Source: a virus. From it: a stretch of 38,870 nt of DNA. This document shows positions 2,964 through 24,872 of this stretch, piece after piece (within the stretch, counting starts at the first letter, position 1; each line of letters opens with the position of its first letter). Location: the IMG/VR virus record IMGVR_UViG_3300008996_000017, positions 1 to 38,870 of that record, one strand, 5' to 3'. The translations under genes were made by a program, and so were the position numbers. The notes under the pieces are model-generated. The model saw nothing but the letters and a program-made list of their open reading frames with translations. It was not told the DNA's origin and searched no databases.

Positions 2964-3944
2964 ATGGACGAGCAGACACTTGCGCTTATTGCGGCGATGC
3001 AATCTGGGAAATTAACAGACTATTCCTCGGCAACAATGGACCCTGTGCTGTCTTATTTGATGGGGACTTATCGCCCTAAGCCACAGTTTGATGAGACGCA
3101 GATGTGGGAGCGTTATGCTCCCAACACTCTGCTGGCCGCACAGGGAGACCCTAAGGACCCATACACAATTGCTGCAGCAAAGATTCGTGCTGGTGCAGCA
3201 CCTTGGAGTCTTTATGATGAGATTCCAAAAGATGTTAAACGTGGTTCTTGGACAAAGTTTGTTGACTCAATTGCCAATGAACAGCAGATTGTTAAATCGA
3301 AGATGATGGAACAGGCATTAGAACAAGACCCATTTGAGAAGCAGGGTCTTCCACGTGCTGATGCAAAGTATCAGCTTGAAGACATGTACAAGTACAACCC
3401 AGATGCTTTCAGCAAAATCATGGAAGGTTTTGATGCAGCATCTGCTGCTGAAAACAAGAAGAGGTCTGAAATTCGTGGCATGTACGGTGATGTTTTTGCA
3501 ACAAATGAAGCAGACAAAATGAAAATGGCAATGGAAATTCAAAAACAAAATGCTCGTGATAATAAAAAGAAAGAATCAAGCGATTCCGTTTTAAGCACTA
3601 TTCGTACTGGATTCGGTAAAGGAATGAGAATATTTCCGATGGTTGTTAGTCAGTATTATGGTGACGAATTTGACCAAAAGAAAAGAGCAACAGAGGCACT
3701 TGGTAAAGACGAATTCAAAGGACCCATTAAAGATTTAGGTAAGTCAGCAATGAATGATGCTTATGCAACTTTTCTTGAATCAATGCTTGCTCGCAAACCA
3801 GGAACTGCAAGTCGAAAGGTGTCTGACGCCGAGAGACTTGCTGGTGTAATACAAACAGAACTTGAATCACGAGGTGGTAGTCCATTAAAAGATGCACTTA
3901 TACAAGCCGCAATGATGAAGGCTGTATTGAAGCGTGGTAAGTAA
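2964..3944 (+). CDS. Internal virion protein (326 aa)
   Basis: Mostly helical, Lys/Glu/Met-rich protein lying between two other probable ejection proteins. The frame is open upstream to a TTG at 2958, but the ATG at 2964 fits the spacing of the recurrent TAACGAA element and is preferred. Residues 150-205 are highly charged with coiled-coil character. A short hydrophobic patch follows (GKGMRIFPMVVSQYYG). The C-terminus overlaps the start of the giant gene by 11 bases. No enzyme motif seen; assignment to the ejection apparatus is by synteny. Confidence 0.55.
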   Translation: MDEQTLALIAAMQSGKLTDYSSATMDPVLSYLMGTYRPKPQFDETQMWERYAPNTLLAAQGDPKDPYTIAAAKIRAGAAPWSLYDEIPKDVKRGSWTKFVDSIANEQQIVKSKMMEQALEQDPFEKQGLPRADAKYQLEDMYKYNPDAFSKIMEGFDAASAAENKKRSEIRGMYGDVFATNEADKMKMAMEIQKQNARDNKKKESSDSVLSTIRTGFGKGMRIFPMVVSQYYGDEFDQKKRATEALGKDEFKGPIKDLGKSAMNDAYATFLESMLARKPGTASRKVSDAERLAGVIQTELESRGGSPLKDALIQAAMMKAVLKRGK

Positions 3945-6900
3945 AAACCAAGATTCCAACGAAGTTCTTAATGCCCTAAAGCAAATTACTGCTAGCAAGG
4001 CACCAAAGAGACAGAGTGTTTTGCCAGATATTGGTAGACCCATTGTTCGTGAATCTTCTCTAACCGAGAATCTCCTCAAGCAACTTGATTCGAATCCATA
4101 CAGGAAACCCGGTACGTTTTTTCCCAAGACACTAGAGTCTTCTGATAATTCAAAACTAGAAAATGCTCTTACTAACGCTAAGAATGCGAGTAGTATTCTT
4201 GGCACTTTGGGCAATATTATGAATGTTGCTGACATACCTAAGCGTGCTGTTATTTCTTCTTTGAGAGAAACTATAGATGCTCTGGATGGTAATGAAGAAA
4301 CCAAAGCATCTTTTTCTGATTGGAAAGAACAAGTTGGAGATAGGGAATACGGTTTTGGTAAAGCATTTCCGATGAAGGGTTGGGCTGGACGTGCAATGGG
4401 TTTGACTGGTGACTTGTTGTTTGACCCGGTTAACTGGGCAACATTTGGTGGTTCTATTCCTTTTAAGGCTGTTATTAAAATGAGTGCTAGGGAGTTTATT
4501 GAACTGTCAGCAAAAGAACTTGCTGAAGGTTCTACAAGGAAATTTATTGTTAAGAAGACTCTTGAAAATGGCGATGTGTTGGTTAAAGCAAGAAGCGTTC
4601 TTGGCAAGAATGTTATTGGACGAGATGGTCGTGCTGCTCTTGGTAGGTTTACCAAGAAGAGATTAACTTTCTTGCGTGATGCTGGTGAAGATGGTTACAA
4701 ACATCTTACCGATGATATGATTACTAGAATTTCTGGTGAAGTTTACGCAGATGGTAAGCGTGTGTTTTTTAGAAATCCTAACCTTCCCGCTGGATTTGCG
4801 GAATCCATCGGTGTTCGGGGTCCAGGTATTTATTATTTTGGTAGTCGATTTAAGGTTCCTGGAACAACAGGTATTGGTCGTTTGGGCGAAGATGTATTGA
4901 CTGAACTGCGTTTGTATGTGTCGACCACAAAAGCGGGTAAGGCTATTCGTACGGCTACAACTGGGCAAGGTGTTGGTCGTATTATGCGGATGGGTGTCAA
5001 GGGTGTTGACAAGAAAACTGGTGAAGACATAATTCTCAACGCATTGGTGCGGGCGAGAGTGAATCTTGCCGATGGTTCTTTGTTGTCCCCAGCGGAAATA
5101 AACCAAGCAATGGCCGTTATAGAGATGCATGATTTTGCACGTATACGTCGTGTTGTCCACGTGGAATCTGAAAGCAACAATATGTCTCCACTTGCAGATG
5201 AGCTTGCTGCTGTTGAAAATGGTTATAGGTATTTGGACCAGGTTCCTACAGCAGAAATACAAGCACGTGCTGCGTCTGGAGATACTGGTTCTGTGGTCGC
5301 CTTGAAGGTTAGACAGTACATGGACTATTTGTGGTCAAGGGCTAATGCTCGTTCAAAGGCTGTTGGTGGAACGGAAATTCCATACAACGATGGATACTTT
5401 CCACACATGGAAACAGCACAGGCAAAACAAGACAGACTCTTAAAGGGTAATGACGCATTCGACGCCATGTTATATGGCGACGATGCGATGGACCCTTTGG
5501 CAAGGAACCAGATTCCAAAGTCAGACCGTAGAACAGTCTTTAATGAACGTCAGTTGGAAGAGGGTGACAAATGGTTTGGTGTAACTCTTAGACAAGCAGA
5601 TTTGACCGCTGACAGACTAAATGAAATTGCACGTGCAAGTGGCAGGGTTAATTTTGACATGTTTGAAACAAACACAACAAAAGTTCTTGCAGAATACTTG
5701 CAACAGTTCTCAGACCAAATGAGTTGGTATGACGCTTTGGAGTATGGAGCTAAAGAGTTTCCAGACCTTTTGAGTTTTGGAGAAATGTTGATGAAGATTT
5801 CTCCAACGTATTCAAATGAAATTATGAAGAAGCGACCTAACCAGATGTTTAGGGCTCTTGAAACAGCGATTCGTAAGCATTCGTTGTTTTTGGACAACTC
5901 GCTTACGAGTGTTAGAAATGAGTTGATTTCTAAGCATGGTTCATTTGAAGCAGCATTGATTGCAATGCGTGAGGGCACAATGTCGGCCACAGAACTTGAC
6001 AGTTTGTTGAAAGCATTGAATGAGCAGATGGCTGTTGCCGAAGGTCTTGATGCGCAATATAAGCAGATGCTTGCAGATATTTCTGCACAATTTGAAAATC
6101 GTGATGGAATCAGTGGTTTTAGTTTGTTTCTTGAGGGTACAAGAAGTGTTCAAGCATCTCAGAAGTTTGAGGAACTGAAAGCTTTGGTGAAAGAATTTTC
6201 TGGTTTTTCTTATGTTGACATGACTCCAGAAAGATTACAACAACTTGAACCATTGTTTAGGGCTTACGAACAGTACACAGAGGCTGTTGGCGTGTTGTCA
6301 CGAGACATTGAGTTTTCTTCATTAGTGTCTGACGTATTTCCTGGTTTGAATAATCTTGGTGAGTACGGAGCGGCACAACAGTATGACATATTTGCAAAGA
6401 TTATTGATGAACTTGGTGAACCCAGCATGAGTACTACTGCTCGCCAGTTGTCTTCTCTATGGGGCCCAAAGAATCCAATTGAATTTAGGACTCTTGGTGT
6501 TAGTCGGGAAGCAATTGATGCTGTTTCACGCATGACTATTGATGATATTAACTCATTTCTTGATGAAGTAAGACTGATGGATGTTGACCAACTTGCGGTA
6601 CTTGGTGATGGTGTGAAATCTGGTACTGGTAGGGGCAACAACTTTGCACTTTGGTTGCAGGCTCTTATTGTTGAGAATGAAAAGCTTGCTAGTGGTGGGT
6701 TTGAATCTAGTTTTCTTGATGATGCGAAAACTTTTCTCGATATTAAAGTTCGCAAGAGAATGAACCCGTACGATTTTAACGCAGTTGACACAACTAAAGC
6801 TGATGGAACTTTTAATCAGTGGAAGTCTGCTGTTAAGAGACTTCTTGTTGGTGATGTTGAGGGTTTTGAGGATTTGTTGATTCAACAAAAAGCATTGTCA

Positions 6901-9900
6901 ACGATTTACAAATGGCAAGAAATGTATGCTCCATTTGGAATTCAGATTGGTGATGATGTTATTGATGAAATAGTTCAACGTGAAGCAAGGGATTATGCGT
7001 TGATTGCTTTACGTAATGGTGATGAGAAAAGGTTTGCCGACCTCACCTCTGCAAAGTTTGGTCGAAATGGCGGTACTGGCCCACTTGGTACACATCGTCT
7101 GATTGAGCGTCAGCGTCAGATATTTGAAGACATGATGGACTTGCATGGCTTTGATGTTAGGACTGGCACTTTTGCGGATGGCAAACCCCTTCCGGTTGCA
7201 ACTAGGAAGCTTCCAGGCTCTCAATCACCTCGTGTTGAAAGCGTTATTAAAAACCTGTCCGAAGAACAGCAAAGACAATGGGCTCGTGTTTCTCAAGAAA
7301 ACAAACAAGTACTTGATTATGTTGATAGTCGTATTGAATTTATAAAGAATGCAAGAAACAACATGCAGTCAGGTAGTGAACTGCAAACGATTTGGGACTC
7401 TATATCCGAAAGATTTGTTAATTCATTAAAGTCGATTGAGTCTGGTGAGTTGTTCAATATTGTGGACGACTCAGCATCTGGTGGAAAGATTTTATTTGAT
7501 GATTTGATTACAGAAATGTATGAGGTTGCCAAGCAGATAGGTGACGCTGCACGATTGAGTCAAGACCCAATTGCGGCTAGAACTATTGAAGATAACTGGA
7601 ACAGTTTTATTGATGAAATGGCAAATCAAATTGAACGCACTAGGTTTATCTTGCAGAATTATAGTCCTGAAAGCCAGATGTATAAGCAACAAAAATTCCA
7701 AATTAGAATGATTATTTCTAATAAGATGTTGCAAGAATTTGATGCAACTAAGACAATTTTCTTCAATGGGTTTAACTCTAATCTTGATTCAATGTCTGAT
7801 GAGATGCTACGTCTTGTGCGTATGCGTAGGCAGGCTTCAAATGTTTTGAATAACCCAGAGGATTATTTTAGGACTGGGCCTGGCAGATTCGATACCAGCA
7901 ATGTGGACGAATCAATACTTGCCGCACCTCGTTCTTTAGACGAGGGCGGAAGAGTTGTTGACACTAGAACTGGTGAACTTGTTCCGCCTACAGAGCAGGA
8001 GCTTGATGTGATAATTGCAAATTATCGCAACAGCGACCAGATGCCGATTGCACGGTCTGCTGAGAATAATGCCAACCGTGCCCACAGTCTTGTGCATGTT
8101 GATTTGAGTAAGATGCCTGCAGACCAGATGCCTGGTGGTGTTGTGTTTACTCCAGACGAATGGGACAACATTGTTCTTGGTGGCGCACTTGAAACTGGTA
8201 GTCCTAAGTTTGATGCTTTCTTGACAGCATTGCGTAGTCAACGTGGTGGCGATGTTTCTGACGACAGGTTGATTGATGGGTTTGTTGATTTTGTTCTTAC
8301 TAACTTTAGGGATACGGATGCAGTTGTCAAGAACAGTAAGGTTATTGCTTATCGTCGTAAACAGATTCGTTTGAACTGGAAAAAATCTGAGCATTACTCA
8401 TGGTTGGAGAATTATAGGACTTACGAGCAAAGGAAGTTTGCTAAGGCTTTTGCAGCGAATGCTTCTGATGAAGTCAGACAGCTTGATGCTGCCTCGAATG
8501 CAATTACTTATGTTAGAGAAGCGAGTAAGGAAGCAGTTGTTGATGTTCCTGCTTTTACGGTATCAAGAAGACAGTTGTTGATAAAAGCGTTTGATAATTT
8601 TATTGAGACTATGGAAAAAGTTCAGAAGACTATTCCCAAGAAAGAAACAAGAGTTGCTTTTATCGAAGAAGCAACTCCAAGTATTGACAAATCTTTTAAC
8701 CCTGGTGCAAAAGAAGTTGCTGATGAGTTTGATGATTCTGTTGAGACAATCATTAATGATGCTCTTGGTATTGGAGAGGGTACATCCAAAAGCCCAAAGG
8801 TTAGCCAAGTTGAATCACGCACTTTTCTTGGCAGAGATGGTGAAGGAATGGAGGTTGCTGATTTTGAAGCGCTTCCAATAACTGGTCTTTCTGGTTCTGA
8901 TGAGGTTCTTCTTTTGAGGAACAGGGAAAATGCAAGGGTTGTTGACTCATTTCTTAAAGGTTCTAATGTTGAGAAATCAACACAGCAACTTGAAAGAGAA
9001 GTTCGTATTCTTGAAACCTTGATAAATAACAAGATGGATACTCCATGGACTACGGGTAAGAGTAAGCGAGTTTTGGTTCGTTTACGTAAAGCAGAAATAG
9101 CAAAGCGTGAAGGATTTGTTGTTACTCCTGCGGGTTCAAGACTTAAGGGCAATTGGACTTATGGGCCATTACCATTTGATGATTTTGAAAGTGCAATTGA
9201 ATATGCAAAAAGAATAGTCAGGGAAGAAAAACTCGTTCTTGCAAAACCCAAGGATGTTGAACGTTTGAAGAAATTTCTCGAACAGGCTGCGTACAGGACG
9301 AAGTACAACATGACTCCCGAACTGCAAACAGCAGTAAATATTGTTAGTGGTCCTTCTGAAACTCAGATTGACAAGATGCTGTTTTCGGTTAATAGTTTTA
9401 TTGATAATGCTTTGAAAAAGCGTAATGGCAAATACAATCGTAGTTTGGCTGTCACACCCGAAGATGTTGATTATTACATGTCAAAATTGAGAGAACCAGA
9501 TTTTGATTATGAGGTTGCTGAATTAGCAGAACTTGATGATTTGCGTAATGCAATCAACTTGAAGAAACTTCCAGAAACCGAAATGGTTTCAGTCCCAAAG
9601 GATATGTCTCCTGTTGCTACGGACGTCCCAATGGACGCCGCAGCCAAACTGCAAGCAGAGTTGGAATTACTTGGTAAGAGTTCGACCACAGAGGTGGAGC
9701 GATTGGGCAAAGATGTTGCTGAAGCCCGTTCTGTGGCCGACAGGTTGCAAGCAAAGTACGACTTGGGTGTTGCATCTAATGAGGCTGTTGATGAGGACCA
9801 GGTTAAATTTCTGCAGAACCGCATTGAGGTTTTGCAGAAATTGGTTGATGATTCACAGATTGAAGTTCGTGCCGGACGTGGTAAGCAGGCAACCCTTGAT

Positions 9901-11337
9901 TACTCAGATGGTATTTCATTTGAATACACGAAACATCAAGAAGCCAAGAAGTTTTTGGAGCATGCGAATGAGGTGTTGTCTTTGCTTGGTGCTAAGACGA
10001 ATGGTGACTTTGATTCTTTGGATTCGATTCTTCGTGCGCAGATTGCATCTGAACTTGAAGTGCATCTTGCTGTTGCCGGCATGAAGTCTGCACAACATGA
10101 CAGGCTTATTCTTGAAGGTGTACAGAAAATGATTGACGACGGTGGAAGGCTGTTACCAGATGGACGTGTTCAAATGGCTGATGGTTTGATAGTTGATGGT
10201 GTTTCTGTTGATGCTGTTGTTGAAGCTGGTAAGGGCATTAGGGCTGGATGGGATTCTATTAGTAAGAACTTCCCTGAACTTTATGGTTCACCTGAGATGG
10301 TTGAACTATTGAATAATGCAGCACGTTTTGAAGACCCTGAGTTTATTAGGAAGATGGCTTACTACATTGGGCCGTACACAAAGTTGTTCAAAGCCTTTGC
10401 TGTTCTGTCACCTGGTTTCCATGTGAGAAACGGATTGGGCAATGCAATTCAACTTGCATTGGCTGGTGTTGAAATGGACAATGCAATTCTTGGCACAAAG
10501 ATGTTTAAGCGATGGATGGACGCATCCAAACAGGGCAAGAGTTGGAACGAGTTTATTGTCACTCTTGAACCACAGATGCAGGAAATAATGAAGACTGCAA
10601 GGAATGGTTCTATTGGTTCTGGTGGTGGTATCTACACAGAAGTAATGAAAGAAGCTTCTGGCAATAGGATTATGGATTGGTGGTTGATTAGGAAGAACTA
10701 TTCCTTTGGACAGGCATCCGACAATTACAGCCGATTTGTATTGTCTTTTGACTCTGCAATGAAAGGCAATGACGTGTTCATGGCAGCAGCACGAGTGAAG
10801 CGTTTTTATTTTGACTATGAAGACCTGAGTACTGTTGACAAATTCATGAAGCAAATCATGCCGTTCTGGTTGTTCTATTCACGCAACTTGCATACGCAGA
10901 TAACGAACATGTGGTTGAACCCACGCCCATACCGTATTTATTACAACATTAAAAACAACATTGCGGATAGGGAAACTCCGAATCCACCATTTGTTGAGGA
11001 GATGGGTGGATTTAGATTGCCATTTGGCGATGGCTTGTATGCCATGCCAGATTTTGGATTTACACGTGTTAATAAAGAACTTTCAGATTTAGCCAATCCG
11101 ATAAGAATGGTACCTAGATTAAATCCTTTGTTTGTTGTTCCATTTGAACAGTTGACCGGACGTGACTCTTACAGTGGTACTAAGTTTACTGATGCTAATG
11201 ACAGGTTGTTGAATGCTTTGACAAGCATTGCACCACCTGCACAGCAATTTGACAAATTGATTACAAACGATAACCCAATGTCACAGCTCAACGCTTGGCT
11301 TGGTTATCTTGGTTCGCCAGTAAGAAAATACAACTAA
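3934..11337 (+). CDS. Giant internal virion / DNA-ejection protein (2467 aa)
   Basis: This single frame takes up about 19 percent of the genome. It starts with GTG at 3934, overlapping the previous gene by 11 bases; no better start is visible downstream. Near the N-terminus is a Gly/aromatic amphipathic segment (GLTGDLLFDPVNWATFGG), and at about nt 5383-5410 a YNDGYFPHM motif. The middle 1,500 residues are long charged helices (many E/D/K/R, MDD, LEEQ patterns). The last 300 residues are more hydrophobic, with AFAVLSPGFHVRNGLGNAI (about nt 10390-10450) and FMKQIMPFWLFYSRNLH (about nt 10840-10910), which could be membrane-active. Large C-terminal proteins of this kind form the ejection conduit in podoviruses. 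No transglycosylase or polymerase motif was recognised. Confidence 0.65.
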   Translation: MVSKNQDSNEVLNALKQITASKAPKRQSVLPDIGRPIVRESSLTENLLKQLDSNPYRKPGTFFPKTLESSDNSKLENALTNAKNASSILGTLGNIMNVADIPKRAVISSLRETIDALDGNEETKASFSDWKEQVGDREYGFGKAFPMKGWAGRAMGLTGDLLFDPVNWATFGGSIPFKAVIKMSAREFIELSAKELAEGSTRKFIVKKTLENGDVLVKARSVLGKNVIGRDGRAALGRFTKKRLTFLRDAGEDGYKHLTDDMITRISGEVYADGKRVFFRNPNLPAGFAESIGVRGPGIYYFGSRFKVPGTTGIGRLGEDVLTELRLYVSTTKAGKAIRTATTGQGVGRIMRMGVKGVDKKTGEDIILNALVRARVNLADGSLLSPAEINQAMAVIEMHDFARIRRVVHVESESNNMSPLADELAAVENGYRYLDQVPTAEIQARAASGDTGSVVALKVRQYMDYLWSRANARSKAVGGTEIPYNDGYFPHMETAQAKQDRLLKGNDAFDAMLYGDDAMDPLARNQIPKSDRRTVFNERQLEEGDKWFGVTLRQADLTADRLNEIARASGRVNFDMFETNTTKVLAEYLQQFSDQMSWYDALEYGAKEFPDLLSFGEMLMKISPTYSNEIMKKRPNQMFRALETAIRKHSLFLDNSLTSVRNELISKHGSFEAALIAMREGTMSATELDSLLKALNEQMAVAEGLDAQYKQMLADISAQFENRDGISGFSLFLEGTRSVQASQKFEELKALVKEFSGFSYVDMTPERLQQLEPLFRAYEQYTEAVGVLSRDIEFSSLVSDVFPGLNNLGEYGAAQQYDIFAKIIDELGEPSMSTTARQLSSLWGPKNPIEFRTLGVSREAIDAVSRMTIDDINSFLDEVRLMDVDQLAVLGDGVKSGTGRGNNFALWLQALIVENEKLASGGFESSFLDDAKTFLDIKVRKRMNPYDFNAVDTTKADGTFNQWKSAVKRLLVGDVEGFEDLLIQQKALSTIYKWQEMYAPFGIQIGDDVIDEIVQREARDYALIALRNGDEKRFADLTSAKFGRNGGTGPLGTHRLIERQRQIFEDMMDLHGFDVRTGTFADGKPLPVATRKLPGSQSPRVESVIKNLSEEQQRQWARVSQENKQVLDYVDSRIEFIKNARNNMQSGSELQTIWDSISERFVNSLKSIESGELFNIVDDSASGGKILFDDLITEMYEVAKQIGDAARLSQDPIAARTIEDNWNSFIDEMANQIERTRFILQNYSPESQMYKQQKFQIRMIISNKMLQEFDATKTIFFNGFNSNLDSMSDEMLRLVRMRRQASNVLNNPEDYFRTGPGRFDTSNVDESILAAPRSLDEGGRVVDTRTGELVPPTEQELDVIIANYRNSDQMPIARSAENNANRAHSLVHVDLSKMPADQMPGGVVFTPDEWDNIVLGGALETGSPKFDAFLTALRSQRGGDVSDDRLIDGFVDFVLTNFRDTDAVVKNSKVIAYRRKQIRLNWKKSEHYSWLENYRTYEQRKFAKAFAANASDEVRQLDAASNAITYVREASKEAVVDVPAFTVSRRQLLIKAFDNFIETMEKVQKTIPKKETRVAFIEEATPSIDKSFNPGAKEVADEFDDSVETIINDALGIGEGTSKSPKVSQVESRTFLGRDGEGMEVADFEALPITGLSGSDEVLLLRNRENARVVDSFLKGSNVEKSTQQLEREVRILETLINNKMDTPWTTGKSKRVLVRLRKAEIAKREGFVVTPAGSRLKGNWTYGPLPFDDFESAIEYAKRIVREEKLVLAKPKDVERLKKFLEQAAYRTKYNMTPELQTAVNIVSGPSETQIDKMLFSVNSFIDNALKKRNGKYNRSLAVTPEDVDYYMSKLREPDFDYEVAELAELDDLRNAINLKKLPETEMVSVPKDMSPVATDVPMDAAAKLQAELELLGKSSTTEVERLGKDVAEARSVADRLQAKYDLGVASNEAVDEDQVKFLQNRIEVLQKLVDDSQIEVRAGRGKQATLDYSDGISFEYTKHQEAKKFLEHANEVLSLLGAKTNGDFDSLDSILRAQIASELEVHLAVAGMKSAQHDRLILEGVQKMIDDGGRLLPDGRVQMADGLIVDGVSVDAVVEAGKGIRAGWDSISKNFPELYGSPEMVELLNNAARFEDPEFIRKMAYYIGPYTKLFKAFAVLSPGFHVRNGLGNAIQLALAGVEMDNAILGTKMFKRWMDASKQGKSWNEFIVTLEPQMQEIMKTARNGSIGSGGGIYTEVMKEASGNRIMDWWLIRKNYSFGQASDNYSRFVLSFDSAMKGNDVFMAAARVKRFYFDYEDLSTVDKFMKQIMPFWLFYSRNLHTQITNMWLNPRPYRIYYNIKNNIADRETPNPPFVEEMGGFRLPFGDGLYAMPDFGFTRVNKELSDLANPIRMVPRLNPLFVVPFEQLTGRDSYSGTKFTDANDRLLNALTSIAPPAQQFDKLITNDNPMSQLNAWLGYLGSPVRKYN

Positions 11338-19312: not shown

Positions 19313-20293
19313 TTAGTAGTAACTTGGGTGTGTGTTTGTACCGGTTGGTGTTTCCCAACCGTGTTCTATCAATGTTGTATCTGATTCAATCCATAGTGCG
19401 TCCCAACAATCGCAAGCATCCATTGCACATAGCAAGCATGCACTACATGTTGCACAGTTTGTACGAAGCTCGTCATTGGGAACAATGTCTTGGATTCCAC
19501 ATCTTTGACAATCAACCATGTTGCGTGTTGCGTCATAGACGGTTGTGTACAACTCTGCTGCTTCGTAGCATTCCTCGGCGCTCAATGCGCCGATTGGAAT
19601 CAATGCTTCATCGTCATCGTCATACATTGTTGTTGCTTTGTCCCACGATGATGCATACGACGTTGTTTTGTAACCGTAGTCCCAATCATTCCAACCACCG
19701 CCGTACATACCTGTGTGTCGCCTGTATGTAATTGCTGCTGGTTTGTATGACTCATTTGACCACCACACATCAGAATCCCAGTGACCATCTTTTTCGTTGA
19801 GGATGTACCAGTCATACTTTGCATCGTCATTGACGGTTAGGAACGCAAGCTTCGAACCCTTAGCCCACGTTGCCATCTGCTGGAAGTATTCACCATCATC
19901 AAGAGACGAGATGCCACCGATTGCCGGCATAATGTCTTCAGCGAACACTCTGGTATCAGAGCGTGTCTCATTCTTTTCCATTTTGACAGGCAAGATACCG
20001 TTGTGGCCGAGCACGGTGTTTTTGTCTTCACCAAGTAGGAAAGGATGACAGTTGTCAACTGTGTTTGTACCGTGAGTAGTCCAACGGAAGTGGAAGATTG
20101 CAGGCCCTTGCATCTTTTTGCGAGCGTCCACAAACTTGTTTGCAACTTCTTCAAAGTCCATACTGCGAACAATGTGAAGTTTTTTACCTGTTGAAATAGC
20201 AAAGCCGAACCCATCAGGGTTGGCTTTAGCGGCGACACGGAACCTGTCCATGTCTGGTGTTACGTAGTCTGGTATCAGTGTGAGTAAACACAT
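19313..20293 (-). CDS. Class II glutamine amidotransferase-like protein
   Basis: 326 residues with an N-terminal nucleophile fold. Cys2 becomes the nucleophile after Met removal (MCLLTL); IFHFRWTTHGT holds the Arg70/His74-Gly75 pair, then NCHPF and GHNGIL (96-101), all in GATase II order. It would free ammonia from glutamine. The C-terminal third is different: an aromatic Gly/Asp/Tyr region, then a dense cysteine cluster (CQRCG, CATCSACLLCAMDACDC) likely to bind zinc. It follows the amidoligase with a two-base gap, with GGGAG in the upstream gene as SD. Together they suggest amide-bond formation on a peptide, cell-wall or nucleobase substrate. The target is unknown. Confidence 0.8.
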   Translation of the reverse strand: MCLLTLIPDYVTPDMDRFRVAAKANPDGFGFAISTGKKLHIVRSMDFEEVANKFVDARKKMQGPAIFHFRWTTHGTNTVDNCHPFLLGEDKNTVLGHNGILPVKMEKNETRSDTRVFAEDIMPAIGGISSLDDGEYFQQMATWAKGSKLAFLTVNDDAKYDWYILNEKDGHWDSDVWWSNESYKPAAITYRRHTGMYGGGWNDWDYGYKTTSYASSWDKATTMYDDDDEALIPIGALSAEECYEAAELYTTVYDATRNMVDCQRCGIQDIVPNDELRTNCATCSACLLCAMDACDCWDALWIESDTTLIEHGWETPTGTNTHPSYY

Positions 20294-20294
20294 A

Positions 20295-21311
20295 TTAAAC
20301 TAACTCCCTTTCTTTTACTCTTTCTGAAATTCTTTGGTTGAGGATGTGGAACTTTGAGCGTTCGATTGTCCATTTGTTGAATGAATCGAACATCAATCCA
20401 CCTGATACGGCTTCTTTTATGTTCACATCTTTTGTGTACTCAAATAGTGCTTGAGCAAATTGAATTGCTGCTAGCACCGTGTCTGTGTTGAGTGATGGAC
20501 GGAAGAACCGTAACTCAATTGTTTTTGTGTTTTGCAAATTGACCGCCATGAACCGTTCCGAGTTCATCACATGTCCCTTTGCCATTTGAGTCAAGGTGTT
20601 GCCCTTGATTGTCTTTTCCTCGTAGTGGTCGTATCGAGCATTGAGGAACATGTTCATGTCAAATCGTGCATAACGAGTTGACTCACGACCAGCGAATTGC
20701 ACAAGTGGAATGCGATTTTTATAGATGAAGTAAATGAATTTCATCAAGTGTGAATCGTTGATGAATGCATTGCGTGACAAGTGCAAATGCAATCCACATG
20801 TGCTTGCATTCCAGGCATGAAATCCACGAGACTTCAAACCAGAAATTGCTTTCCAGTTGAAATCTTGCATGAAGAATTCCATTGTGCCGGGATGTGAAAC
20901 AATTTCGAAGCCATGGTCAAGTGAACCATCAGATTTGAGGTAAACAGTTTCCATTCCGCTGATTACAGTGTTTGCTTTTACAAACCTTGCACCGTTCATT
21001 CTGTCACCAGAAACACATTCTGTTTCCAATTCGACTCCGATATACAACTCAGGGCTCATTTTGTCCCCGTTGTATTTTGTTACTGAACGATATGCCGAAC
21101 GGAAGTCACCGTTTTCATGCATGAAGATTGGACGTTTCTTGAATGCCCACGGAAGGATGAGACCTTCATCATTGTCATCACTGTTGTGGTTTGTGTATGA
21201 TTCATAGCAATCTTCACCACACCACCAATCGCCACCGATATCGACCATGTCCTCGATTTCGTATGTTTCTTCACAGTTTGGGCATGTGATTTCTTCATTA
21301 TTTCTTGGCAC
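20295..21311 (-). CDS. Amidoligase-family enzyme (glutamine synthetase-like fold)
   Basis: 338 residues. An N-terminal zinc ribbon (C10, C13, C31, C35) precedes the catalytic core: YIGVELETE (E95, E97), YLKSDGSLDHGFEIVS (E136), CGLHLHLSR (H175, H177) and TIELRFFRPSLN, the order typical of amidoligase_2 enzymes, which join carboxyl and amino groups using ATP. The start is GTG with GGAG six bases upstream, overlapping the end of a 54-codon gene by 14 bases. Pairing with a GATase II gene is a known theme for this family in phages and bacteria. The substrate is not shown by the sequence. Confidence 0.85.
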   Translation of the reverse strand: MPRNNEEITCPNCEETYEIEDMVDIGGDWWCGEDCYESYTNHNSDDNDEGLILPWAFKKRPIFMHENGDFRSAYRSVTKYNGDKMSPELYIGVELETECVSGDRMNGARFVKANTVISGMETVYLKSDGSLDHGFEIVSHPGTMEFFMQDFNWKAISGLKSRGFHAWNASTCGLHLHLSRNAFINDSHLMKFIYFIYKNRIPLVQFAGRESTRYARFDMNMFLNARYDHYEEKTIKGNTLTQMAKGHVMNSERFMAVNLQNTKTIELRFFRPSLNTDTVLAAIQFAQALFEYTKDVNIKEAVSGGLMFDSFNKWTIERSKFHILNQRISERVKERELV

Positions 21312-22822: not shown

Positions 22823-23116
22823 TCAATCTGCCCAACCTTGACTTTCGTTGAGTTGCTCGAAACGGTCATCGTCTCGCCAATCAACATCTGTGGTCGGAAG
22901 GGCCAAGTCATTGTCAGACGGTTCTTGCGAGGCTTCAAAGTCTCGCAACATGTCCAAACGGTGAAGCCGAATCTCAGGGTCGTCCTCGTCGTCAACTCCG
23001 TCAATCTCGTCCTGAACGGACTGATAGGCAGAGCCGTAGTGTTTGTCAAGCACATAACGAGTAATGCGTGGTTCGTCCACAAAGTCTCCAATCTGTAGGT
23101 AAGTGAAGTTTCTCAC
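22823..23116 (-). CDS. Unknown acidic protein (85-97 aa)
   Basis: A strongly acidic protein (EIDGVDDEDDPEIRLHRLDM, DVDWRDDDRFEQ). The longest frame starts with GTG at 23116, which lies inside a 14-bp hairpin stem with no good SD. A second GTG at 23080 has GGAG five bases upstream and would give 85 residues; it may be the true start. Acidic phage proteins of this size sometimes mimic DNA, but no such claim can be shown here. Confidence 0.6.
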   Translation of the reverse strand: MRNFTYLQIGDFVDEPRITRYVLDKHYGSAYQSVQDEIDGVDDEDDPEIRLHRLDMLRDFEASQEPSDNDLALPTTDVDWRDDDRFEQLNESQGWAD

Positions 23117-23142
23117 GGGGGCGAAAAACCCCCGTGAGAAAC
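23108..23142 (-). terminator. 14-bp perfect hairpin
   Basis: GTTTCTCACGGGGG (23108-23121) pairs fully with CCCCCGTGAGAAAC (23129-23142) over a 7-base loop. It lies just after the 44-residue gene and covers the upstream GTG candidate of the acidic gene. On the - strand the loop is TTTTTCG, but no T run follows the stem, so it is a strong structure of uncertain role. Confidence 0.55.
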
Positions 23143-23146
23143 GAAC

Positions 23147-23281
23147 TCAGTGTTTTTTCAAACACCAATTACGGCTGACTGAAATGTCCTCAACAGCCTT
23201 GTCATAACCAAGCTCGTAAACGATACGACCAAAGATTGTCAAGGCGATTGAAGCGCAGGTGAACAAGCCAAACCAGTTCAT
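23147..23281 (-). CDS. Small membrane protein (44 aa)
   Basis: The 44-codon frame starts by ATGA overlap with the upstream coiled-coil gene. Residues 2-22 form one probable membrane helix (NWFGLFTCASIALTIFG) followed by a short charged tail. No family recognised. The pairing of a soluble coiled-coil gene with a small membrane gene by translational coupling supports both being real. Confidence 0.6.
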   Translation of the reverse strand: MNWFGLFTCASIALTIFGRIVYELGYDKAVEDISVSRNWCLKKH

Positions 23282-23436
23282 GACGCAATCCCACGAGTGA
23301 GAGCGAAATGAGTGTTCAACAAGTTGACCAACCCATCGTTTTTCATTTCAAGGTCAGCAATCACATCGGCCTGACGCTCCATTTTGGACTGAAGCTCCTC
23401 AACCTTTTTGTACAACAGATGTTCTGTGTATGTCAT
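23278..23436 (-). CDS. Small coiled-coil protein (52 aa)
   Basis: A 52-codon frame that starts by ATGA overlap with the stop of a 23-codon leader frame and ends by ATGA overlap with the membrane gene. The protein is a charged amphipathic helix (YKKVEELQSKMERQADVIAD, LEMKNDGLVNLL). The SD is poor, so translation may depend on the leader frame. Confidence 0.65.
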   Translation of the reverse strand: MTYTEHLLYKKVEELQSKMERQADVIADLEMKNDGLVNLLNTHFALTRGIAS

Positions 23437-23504
23437 AAAACCCAACTTTCAGATAGTAGGAATAAAGCCCAATGTTGACCTGCCAGGGCAATCGCAGGGT
23501 TCAT
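23433..23504 (-). CDS. Leader-peptide frame 1 (23 aa)
   Basis: Begins MNPAIALA and ends with a TGA overlapping the ATG of the 52-residue gene. It lies in repeat copy 1, downstream of the GTCCA/TGGAC hairpin. The start MN-x-AIALA is shared with leader frame 2. It is probably a coupling or regulatory leader rather than a stable protein. Confidence 0.45.
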   Translation of the reverse strand: MNPAIALAGQHWALFLLSESWVL

Positions 23505-23528
23505 GTTGTTTTGTGTCCACCAATGGAC
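23463..23528 (-). repeat. Intergenic cassette repeat, copy 1
   Basis: 66 bases matching 23765-23831. The outer 14 bases (TAAAGCCCAATGTT) are identical, a four- to five-base middle stretch differs, and the remaining 48 bases differ at five positions. It includes the inverted repeat GTCCA-CCAA-TGGAC and the start of a leader frame. Confidence 0.85.
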
Positions 23529-23538
23529 AAAGCATGTA

Positions 23539-23736
23539 TTAGATGTTCTCCCACTCAATGAGTGACGAAGGAACAACATTTACATCCTCTTTACAGATGC
23601 GAGTCTCGATTTGAACAATGTCACCGAATTGTTGTAGCAAAGCGAGTTCACGACCCAACTCTGACTGTGCGTTCGCAATCTGGTTACGAAGTTCATAGAC
23701 CCTGTTGTTTACTTGCTCAAAAGTTTTATTTTTCAC
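23539..23736 (-). CDS. Small coiled-coil protein (65 aa)
   Basis: 65 residues, GTG start at 23736 with GGGAG six bases upstream and a GTGA overlap with leader frame 2. The N-terminal 35 residues are a likely coiled coil (FEQVNNRVYELRNQIANAQ, SELGRELALLQQFG). The end is a mixed segment (VNVVPSSLIEWENI). It stands between the two copies of the cassette repeat, in the same relation to copy 2 as the 52-residue gene to copy 1. Confidence 0.65.
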   Translation of the reverse strand: MKNKTFEQVNNRVYELRNQIANAQSELGRELALLQQFGDIVQIETRICKEDVNVVPSSLIEWENI

Positions 23737-23807
23737 GATAATCTCCCAAAGTAGTTGTGGTTAGTAAAGCCCAATGTTTTGCTTGCTAGGGCTATCGCAA
23801 GGTTCAT
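23733..23807 (-). CDS. Leader-peptide frame 2 (24 aa)
   Basis: Begins MNLAIALA and ends with a TGA overlapping the GTG of the 65-residue gene. It lies in repeat copy 2, downstream of the GTCCA/TGGAC hairpin. Only the first eight residues resemble leader frame 1. Confidence 0.45.
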   Translation of the reverse strand: MNLAIALASKTLGFTNHNYFGRLS

Positions 23808-23831
23808 GTTGTTTAGAGTCCACCAATGGAC
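23765..23831 (-). repeat. Intergenic cassette repeat, copy 2
   Basis: 67 bases, partner of the copy at 23463-23528. It carries the same hairpin GTCCA-CCAA-TGGAC and the same leader start context (AACAACATGAACC on the - strand). Confidence 0.85.
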
Positions 23832-23842
23832 GATGCTGAAAA

Positions 23843-24064
23843 TCAGCGAGCAATCAACCACTCAAGGTTGACAGTAGGGTCAAGAATCGCCTCAACGACG
23901 GTTCCAATGTTGACGCCATGCTCCTCGACGAAGCCCAAGCCATAGGTATTGACAACATCGTCAATGTCTAAGCCTGTCAACTCGGTCAGAGCCTGAACAG
24001 AGCGCCACGAGTCATCAGACTCATCAACCCAGACCTCACGGTCATAATCATGTAATACGGACAT
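23843..24064 (-). CDS. Unknown acidic protein (73 aa)
   Basis: Start placed at the ATG at 24064 (a TTG lies two codons upstream). The protein is acidic and likely folded (REVWVDESDDSWRSVQALTE, LTGLDIDDVVNTYGLGFVEE). It is the first gene after the non-coding control region in the - strand arm and precedes repeat copy 2, so it is probably expressed very early. No family recognised. Confidence 0.6.
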   Translation of the reverse strand: MSVLHDYDREVWVDESDDSWRSVQALTELTGLDIDDVVNTYGLGFVEEHGVNIGTVVEAILDPTVNLEWLIAR

Positions 24065-24140
24065 AACCAACCTGCTTTCATGTGAAGTGAATACAACAAC
24101 CGACCCAATGAGTGAGAGTCAGGATGAGAGGGGGAAATTA

Positions 24141-24177
24141 GCAACCCCCCCCACCAAAATCCCTTTGGGGGGGGTGC
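24141..24177. promoter_or_regulatory. C8/G8 hairpin
   Basis: C8 at 24145-24152 pairs with G8 at 24167-24174, flanked by GCA and TGC, with a loop holding CCCTTT. The same CCCTTTGGGG core occurs in the other non-coding hairpin at 16961-16992. Confidence 0.55.
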
Positions 24178-24425
24178 AAGAAAGGTGAACAGTCATAGGG
24201 GGGCGGAAAAAGAATGGGTTGACCTTGACACGGCTGACCACACTGGTGCTGAACTGGTTGTGTGCCTGTATGACACGACGGGGGGGGTGGGGGTGTGCGC
24301 CCGTCAGGCTACCAAGGGACGGGCACTGGTCATGTCCGTAGCATCGATTTCCCCCAATCCGAGCAGGGTTTTTGCGACACGTGGGGGTACTAACTTTTAA
24401 GTACCAGCACCCTAAAATTGACACG

Positions 24426-24461
24426 AAATTTGGTACAAAATTTGGTGCAATGCACGTGCAT
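24426..24461. repeat. Tandem 12-base repeat plus palindrome
   Basis: AAATTTGGTACA (24426-24437) and AAATTTGGTGCA (24438-24449) are adjacent direct repeats with one difference, followed at once by the perfect palindrome ATGCACGTGCAT (24450-24461). The arrangement resembles iterons or a paired protein-binding site. Confidence 0.6.
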
Positions 24462-24488
24462 CTTTTTGGCACCCGGTGCATTGGTTTT

Positions 24489-24500
24489 GTGGTTGACCAC
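24489..24500. promoter_or_regulatory. Candidate operator GTGGTTGACCAC
   Basis: A nearly perfect 12-base palindrome, related to the one at 24575-24586. Half sites GACCAC also occur at 24236 and 24715. Confidence 0.4.
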
Positions 24501-24574
24501 GGTGAGCAGTTTTGTGGTTTGGTTGGCGGTGGTTTTTGCCGCACCGCATAGGTTGGGTTAGTGTGGTCTCCCTT

Positions 24575-24586
24575 GTGGTCGACCAG
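24575..24586. promoter_or_regulatory. Candidate operator GTGGTCGACCAG
   Basis: Contains the perfect palindrome TGGTCGACCA at 24576-24585. It is 86 bases from the related site at 24489. Confidence 0.4.
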
Positions 24587-24593
24587 TGTTCTG

Positions 24594-24624
24594 CGGTTTG
24601 TCAGCCTGAGGGGCTGACAAACCG
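24594..24624. terminator. 13-bp perfect hairpin in the control region
   Basis: CGGTTTGTCAGCC (24594-24606) pairs fully with GGCTGACAAACCG (24612-24624) over a 5-base loop. It lies downstream of the 42-residue gene on the - strand. No T run follows; it may separate the first two small genes from the rest of the arm. Confidence 0.45.
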
Positions 24625-24743
24625 AACATGTCTTGAGACAGTTCTGTTCTTCCCCCCATCCCTACCCTTCCCCCCAAGTGTTACATATCTGTGAGTGTTT
24701 GTTCGACCACAGGCGGTGGGGGTTGTTTTGTAAGTACTGGCGC

Positions 24744-24872
24744 CTATTTTTGACGTGCTGTTTTTCTAGCCTTTTTGGTCGAAACTGGAACACAGTTAGG
24801 GACTTTTTTGCCGTTTTTAATCTTGTAACCCTTTTGAACGTACCCTGTCCAACATGGTCCTTTGGTTGCCAT
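24744..24872 (-). CDS. Small conserved-looking basic protein (42 aa)
   Basis: The frame starts with an ATG overlapping by one base the stop of the upstream gene (TGATG). The protein begins MATKGPCWTGYVQKGYKIKN and continues to KKVPNCVPV and a Lys/Arg tail. The CW-x-GY ... NGKKVPNCVP pattern is, from memory, that of a short protein common in marine and freshwater phages. Two cysteines and a basic tail could bind nucleic acid, but function is unknown. Confidence 0.75.
   Translation of the reverse strand: MATKGPCWTGYVQKGYKIKNGKKVPNCVPVSTKKARKTARQK

Follow-up and report, generated by a model that had tools for sequence, protein, structure and literature searches.

The window, meaning the whole stretch of DNA analysed here, is a 38.87-kb phage record from IMG/VR; its terminase shares 52% identity with the terminase of an unclassified Manatee Spring podovirus. 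Two copies of a short repeat lie among small genes on its minus strand. A 75-aa gene (23843..24070, minus), with homologs at the same place in G008, L131, L005, L133, L136, and L138, stops 11 nt ahead of the first stem, P1, of the first copy, E1 (23763..23831, minus; 5' end at 23831). The 65-aa coiled-coil-like gene after E1 (23539..23736, minus) has its GTG start codon 95 nt past the beginning of P1 and the Shine-Dalgarno (SD) sequence GGGAG, and it ends 10 nt ahead of P1 of the second copy, E2 (23461..23528, minus; 5' end at 23528). It has a 63% identical homolog at the same place in L005 and no family match in Pfam or PHROG. E2 is followed by a 52-aa gene (23278..23436, minus) with an ATG start 92 nt from the P1 start, weakly similar to the gene behind the single element of L131.

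The original prediction described two copies of a 66-67-base sequence, and the repeat proved to be real, running on the minus strand from 23831 to 23765 and from 23528 to 23463. E1 and E2 share 53 bp at 87% identity and, across a 1-nt indel, an exact 14-mer, and a pattern of their shared features matches only these two sites in the window, with 0 matches expected in shuffles. Each copy holds the inverted repeat GTCCA/TGGAC and opens a short frame beginning MN-x-AIALA, both as had been noted: MNLAIALASKTLGFTNHNYFGRLS, of 24 codons, within E1 (23733..23807, minus) and MNPAIALAGQHWALFLLSESWVL, of 23 codons, within E2 (23433..23504, minus). The ends of these frames do overlap the start of the next gene in the window, as GTGA and ATGA, respectively. 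The two peptides were also correctly said to diverge after residue 8, and they do so because the 1-nt indel shifts the frame of a nucleotide repeat that continues beyond it. AACATTGGGCTTTA is retained in both window copies, in another frame past the indel, a sign that nucleotides rather than a peptide may be what is conserved.

A search of relatives for further copies, proposed in the same prediction as a check, recovered 17 distinct element sequences across 15 IMG/VR phage records by exact-pattern scans and a covariance model, with two copies per record in 8 of the 15. The covariance model, R1, was built from 8 copies; E1 was among these training sequences, so its score (91.7 bits, E 1.5e-14) is not independent, and E2, from outside the training set, scored 82.7 bits (E 6.8e-13). 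Second copies missed by the first patterns came to light through the model and scans at L005:2973, L135:455, L108:8039, L002:4447, and L004:8748.

The element begins with P1 (5 bp, with a UUGG loop), continues through a 15-16 nt linker ending in CAU(G/A)ANC, and closes with an H-type pseudoknot (PK). The stem P2 has 5 bp, of which the outer and inner C-G pairs are constant; its loop consists of G(A/U)U, the pseudoknot strand, and 2-3 nt, and an A-rich strand of 8-9 nt (18 in L109) lies between P2' and the pseudoknot partner. On the minus strand, E1 comprises P1 GUCCA/UGGAC with its UUGG loop (23818..23831), P2 CUUGC/GCAAG with a 10-nt loop (23782..23801), and a pseudoknot (23768..23793) pairing AGCCC (23793-23789) with GGGCU (23772-23768). 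E2 has the same P1 and loop (23515..23528), identified by the joint pattern match and covariation; its P2, CCUGC/GCAGG (23479..23498), is compensatory relative to that of E1, and its pseudoknot (23466..23490), placed by PK covariation, pairs GCCC (23489-23486) with GGGC (23470-23467). With the variant segments placed by hand, P1 occurs among the copies as GUCCA/UGGAC, CACGA/UCGUG, or GUCUA/UAGAC, and P2 in five variants that are 100% paired (CUUGC/GCAAG, CCUGC/GCAGG, CAUAC/GUAUG, CAACC/GGUUG, and CCACC/GGUGG). The pseudoknot core has seven 4-nt variants, namely GCCC/GGGC, GCUC/GAGC, ACUC/GAGU, ACCC/GGGU, AUUC/GAAU, AUCA/UGGU, and GCCA/GGGC, the last with one mismatch.

These substitutions preserve pairing far beyond what the controls show. 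In alignment A5, 94.5% of the cells in P1, P2, and PK are paired and 11 of the 15 pairs are altered on both sides, counts that are inflated in that the rows are related; P1 and P2 were included in the aligning model. The covariation score for the three helices is 0.517, compared with 0.156 +/- 0.025 in shuffles (0 of 500 reached the observed value) and at most 0.157 in slid controls. The pseudoknot was not included in the covariance model that made the alignment, and taken alone it scores 0.642 against 0.310 +/- 0.050 in shuffles and at most 0.246 in slides. Conservation of the UUGG loop and of P1 is in part a product of the search patterns, several of which contained the loop; all copies recovered with a P1-free pattern carry UUGG too, and those that the model found without a condition on P1 have compensated P1 stems. 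The strand is supported by one U-G pair (L002b) and by gene direction. Compensatory changes well above controls are the mark of a structured RNA family, and they strongly support an RNA fold made of a hairpin and an H-type pseudoknot. Minimum free energy folding of single copies gave no significant z-score and chose P2 or PK alternately, as expected when a folder has no means of representing a pseudoknot, and we did not count this against the structure. Rfam 15 had no match in the window, and the best matches at lax thresholds lay far below gathering and off the element.

The conserved structure bears directly on the idea, central to the original prediction, of a leader-peptide switch, with translation of a short peptide whose stop codon overlaps the start of the next gene. 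An MN-x-A frame whose stop falls on the next start codon occurs only in the two window copies (w1 and w2) and in L005a, the ortholog of w1. Frame length varies among the copies (9, 10, 13, 14, 15, 18, 21, 23, or 24 codons), and in L002, L003, L005b, L108, L109, L110, L131, L133, L135, and L244 the RNA structure is kept while frames of 9-21 codons end away from the next start, an outcome that the prediction itself had named as refuting it. Nor is the start codon kept: the element AUG is replaced by AUA (ATA in the DNA) in three distinct copies, L135b, L136 (identical to L138), and L108b. Compensatory changes in P2 and PK alter the peptide freely, and neither the start codon nor the reading frame is conserved in relatives in the way expected of a leader peptide. 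We find such a coupling switch very improbable. Given the AUA starts and the varied frame lengths and ends, the short peptide is most plausibly incidental to conservation of the CAUGAACC strand; an AUG within a conserved RNA structure can mimic a conserved small open reading frame, a caution that may apply elsewhere. The notion of a modular translational switch survives in part, in that the module is reused before many different genes in two groups of phages, and the leader-peptide and coupling component finds no support.

The placement of the element is tightly constrained. In 17 of the 19 listed copies, P1 starts 7-16 nt past the upstream stop, and the next likely start lies ~85-104 nt from the P1 start in most copies and 120-156 nt in three. 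The element and its flanking genes are always on the same strand in the listed copies, and the SD region is located past the pseudoknot. What follows is varied and includes a LysM protein (L002b), small membrane proteins, coiled coils, and unknowns. A compact pseudoknotted RNA with invariant unpaired letters that always sits between two co-directional genes, indifferent to what comes next, could also serve to separate them on the polycistronic message, as a small self-cleaving ribozyme or as a processing site for a nuclease; with no match to an Rfam ribozyme family, lax thresholds included, we regard this as unlikely.

Small riboswitch folds such as preQ1-I and SAM-II resemble an H-type pseudoknot with an A-rich third loop, and the element might on these grounds be taken for a metabolite-sensing riboswitch. 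The genes downstream are unrelated to one another and to metabolism, however, and two copies with different stems occur in one genome. No expression platform, whether SD masking or a terminator, was found: secondary-structure ensembles, which ignore the pseudoknot, gave no consistent element-dependent change in SD accessibility, and searches found no terminator, anti-SD pairing, or other alternative pairing after the element and no sigma-70-like promoter or terminator inside it. The lack of a platform together with the unrelated downstream genes argues against a metabolite riboswitch, which we consider decidedly unlikely.

The carriers fall into two groups. Group A is syntenic with the window (G008, G011, L005, L131, L133, L136, and L138), and group B comprises longer records (G001 at 204 kb, G003 at 177 kb, G005, G006, G002, G007, and G013) that have no structural gene in common with the window at E 1e-4 and a terminase that is at best a very distant relative of the window's. 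WhiB genes are present in the window, G008, G011, and G001 and were not found in four other group B records searched; where present, they point to hosts that are likely actinobacterial. The isolate-phage collection yielded no match covering half of the element, MW202803, the nearest named relative, lacks it, and a scan of 84,980 species genomes, bacterial and archaeal, found no element with the GTCCA stem. Among the candidates rejected as copies are two GTDB pattern matches (L139 and L140), in which P2 and PK are missing, and a covariance-model match, L288, of only 17 bits with non-standard pairs in P1. Matches to TAAACAACATGAACC / TAAATAACATGAACC without P1 (>150 loci) look like chance, with no P2 or PK seen, and the covariance model found no element in the 99 searched loci of the first such set. 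The P1-free pattern recovered only known copies and chance matches. With carriers limited to 15 IMG/VR records, the role could be a very specialised one.

Group A shares other features around the element. A strong perfect hairpin of 10-14 bp lies downstream of it in 7 of 7 group A records, against a background of ~0.03 per kb, at 23108-23142 (minus) in the window and, counted from the first element, at +406 in G008, +764 in G011, +819 in L005, +425 in L131, and +376 in L133/L138. Its loop, AGCARGTKTGT, is conserved in six, with a variable stem, and the window's loop differs. The lack of a U-tract behind it sets it apart from ordinary terminators, and it could be another conserved RNA element. 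A further hairpin, CTCGCCCCCGC...GCGGGGCGAG, is common to L005 (+1242) and L131 (+840 from the element) and is followed directly by ATGAAGCC, in which it abuts a possible start codon. Elsewhere in the window, two adjoining genes kept in relatives (20295-21311 and 19313-20293, minus) gave an amidoligase match (PF12224) and a weak match, below the cut-off, to a class-II glutamine amidotransferase (PF13230), and may act as a pair in peptide ligation or amidation. A 2467-aa open frame at 3934-11337, which has homologs in G008 and G011, apparently encodes a virion protein of very large size.

The element is located early in the replication-side operon in both groups; in records that show the divergent gene junction, the distance to it is ~1.3-5 kb. 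In the window, positions 24071-24871 form a stretch of ~800 nt without a clear gene, rich in G/C runs, that likely holds the promoter of the leftward operon. Inside it, ~0.8 kb upstream of E1, is a perfect hairpin of 13 bp (CGGTTTGTCAGCC...). A siting in the first kilobases of such an operon, with indifference to the following gene, a length of ~70 nt, and the presence of two copies in 8 of the 15 records, recalls the put RNAs of HK022, which are ~70 nt long, occur twice per genome, and lie in early operons (PMC9378689). By this analogy, the folded nascent RNA would modify the passing RNA polymerase, as an antitermination or anti-pausing signal, and promote read-through of the early operon. 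The structures differ, however: put consists of two long stem-loops (putL/putR), with no described pseudoknot of this type, and the element of one short hairpin and a pseudoknot. Its two copies sit 300-900 nt apart in a single operon and are not divided between two, and a tight siting directly before ribosome-binding sites is not needed by put. The very few terminator-like sites on the operon strand also count mildly against this mechanism, which we judge rather unlikely.

In group B, the element coincides with mosaic joints. L002a and L108a are 93% identical over 300 nt upstream and the element, and their similarity is lost soon past the pseudoknot. Between L002a and L003a, and likewise L004a, identity begins at P1 and the upstream sequence is unrelated. 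L002b and L003b are 97% identical up to P1, beyond which the element helices and the following gene differ. These joints at the ends of the element mark it as a boundary at which genes are exchanged.

We propose that E1 and E2 probably belong to a new family of ~70-nt structured cis-acting mRNA elements that set the expression of the next gene. Within an early polycistronic transcript, presumably of one operon, each copy would fold right behind the stop codon of the upstream gene, forming a hairpin capped by UUGG and then an H-type pseudoknot, ending ~20-30 nt before the next start and leaving the SD region free. A host or phage factor, perhaps an RNA-binding protein, the ribosome, or RNA polymerase, would recognise the invariant unpaired letters of the UUGG loop, the CAU(G/A)ANC strand, and the A-rich loop, and its binding would set the translation or stability of the downstream message. 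As the same RNA could serve any gene, element and gene would be exchangeable as a cassette, with the ends of the element acting as recombination joints. More tentatively, and with considerable doubt, the element may represent a new phage RNA class, serving as a plug-in leader in two unrelated lineages of actinobacterial phages and exchanged along with genes; it would then be a small ribozyme or would modify RNA polymerase or the ribosome without needing a factor.

A small pseudoknot RNA repeated in phage genomes could also act in trans, as a decoy that is located in operons incidentally. ToxN, for example, is countered by ToxI, a pseudoknot RNA that is co-transcribed (PMC5772629), and mimicry of a CRISPR repeat would be another version of this idea. 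The fixed position ahead of the ribosome-binding sites of coding genes speaks against it, as do the freely varying stems, which do not suit the imitation of a fixed host repeat, and the lack of a recognisable adjoining toxin gene or an Rfam match. We give a type III antitoxin or CRISPR-repeat mimic very little credence.

The element adds a strongly supported new RNA fold to environmental phages, where gene regulation is almost unstudied, and the cis-acting reading would make it a leader RNA that works as a plug-and-play unit common to unrelated phages, moving with short unknown genes. The natural variants are ready-made compensatory mutants for direct tests of mechanism. The motif was not found in the open-licence papers searched, and several known systems resemble it in part. 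The manA and wcaG motifs are cyanophage structured RNAs that precede metabolic genes (PMC2864571); like the element, they are phage 5' UTR structures from comparative genomics, mostly environmental, but their fold, sequence, and metabolic downstream genes are different. The STAXI motif (RF01728) consists of pseudoknots in tandem ahead of DNA-handling genes (PMC2864571) and resembles the element as a pseudoknot RNA that recurs beside small genes of mobile DNA; the element, however, has no Rfam match, carries an additional UUGG hairpin, and occurs before separate genes rather than in tandem before one. The PeSL cassettes of T4-like phages, as described in PMC4503421 (citing Arbiol 2010 and Comeau 2014), are short intergenic regulatory stem-loop sequences reused before small early genes, with gene exchange reported at the unit. 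Mosaic exchange at the ends is likewise seen in L002a/L108a, L002a/L003a, L002a/L004a, and L002b/L003b. As described there, PeSL joins a simple stem-loop to an early promoter, whereas the element has a covarying pseudoknot and no visible early promoter of the sigma-70-like kind searched for, and its carriers are not T4-like phages. As a kind, structured leader RNA in phages has precedents in manA, wcaG, STAXI, and put; what appears to be new is the family itself and its use as a shuffled hairpin-pseudoknot cassette common to unrelated phages.
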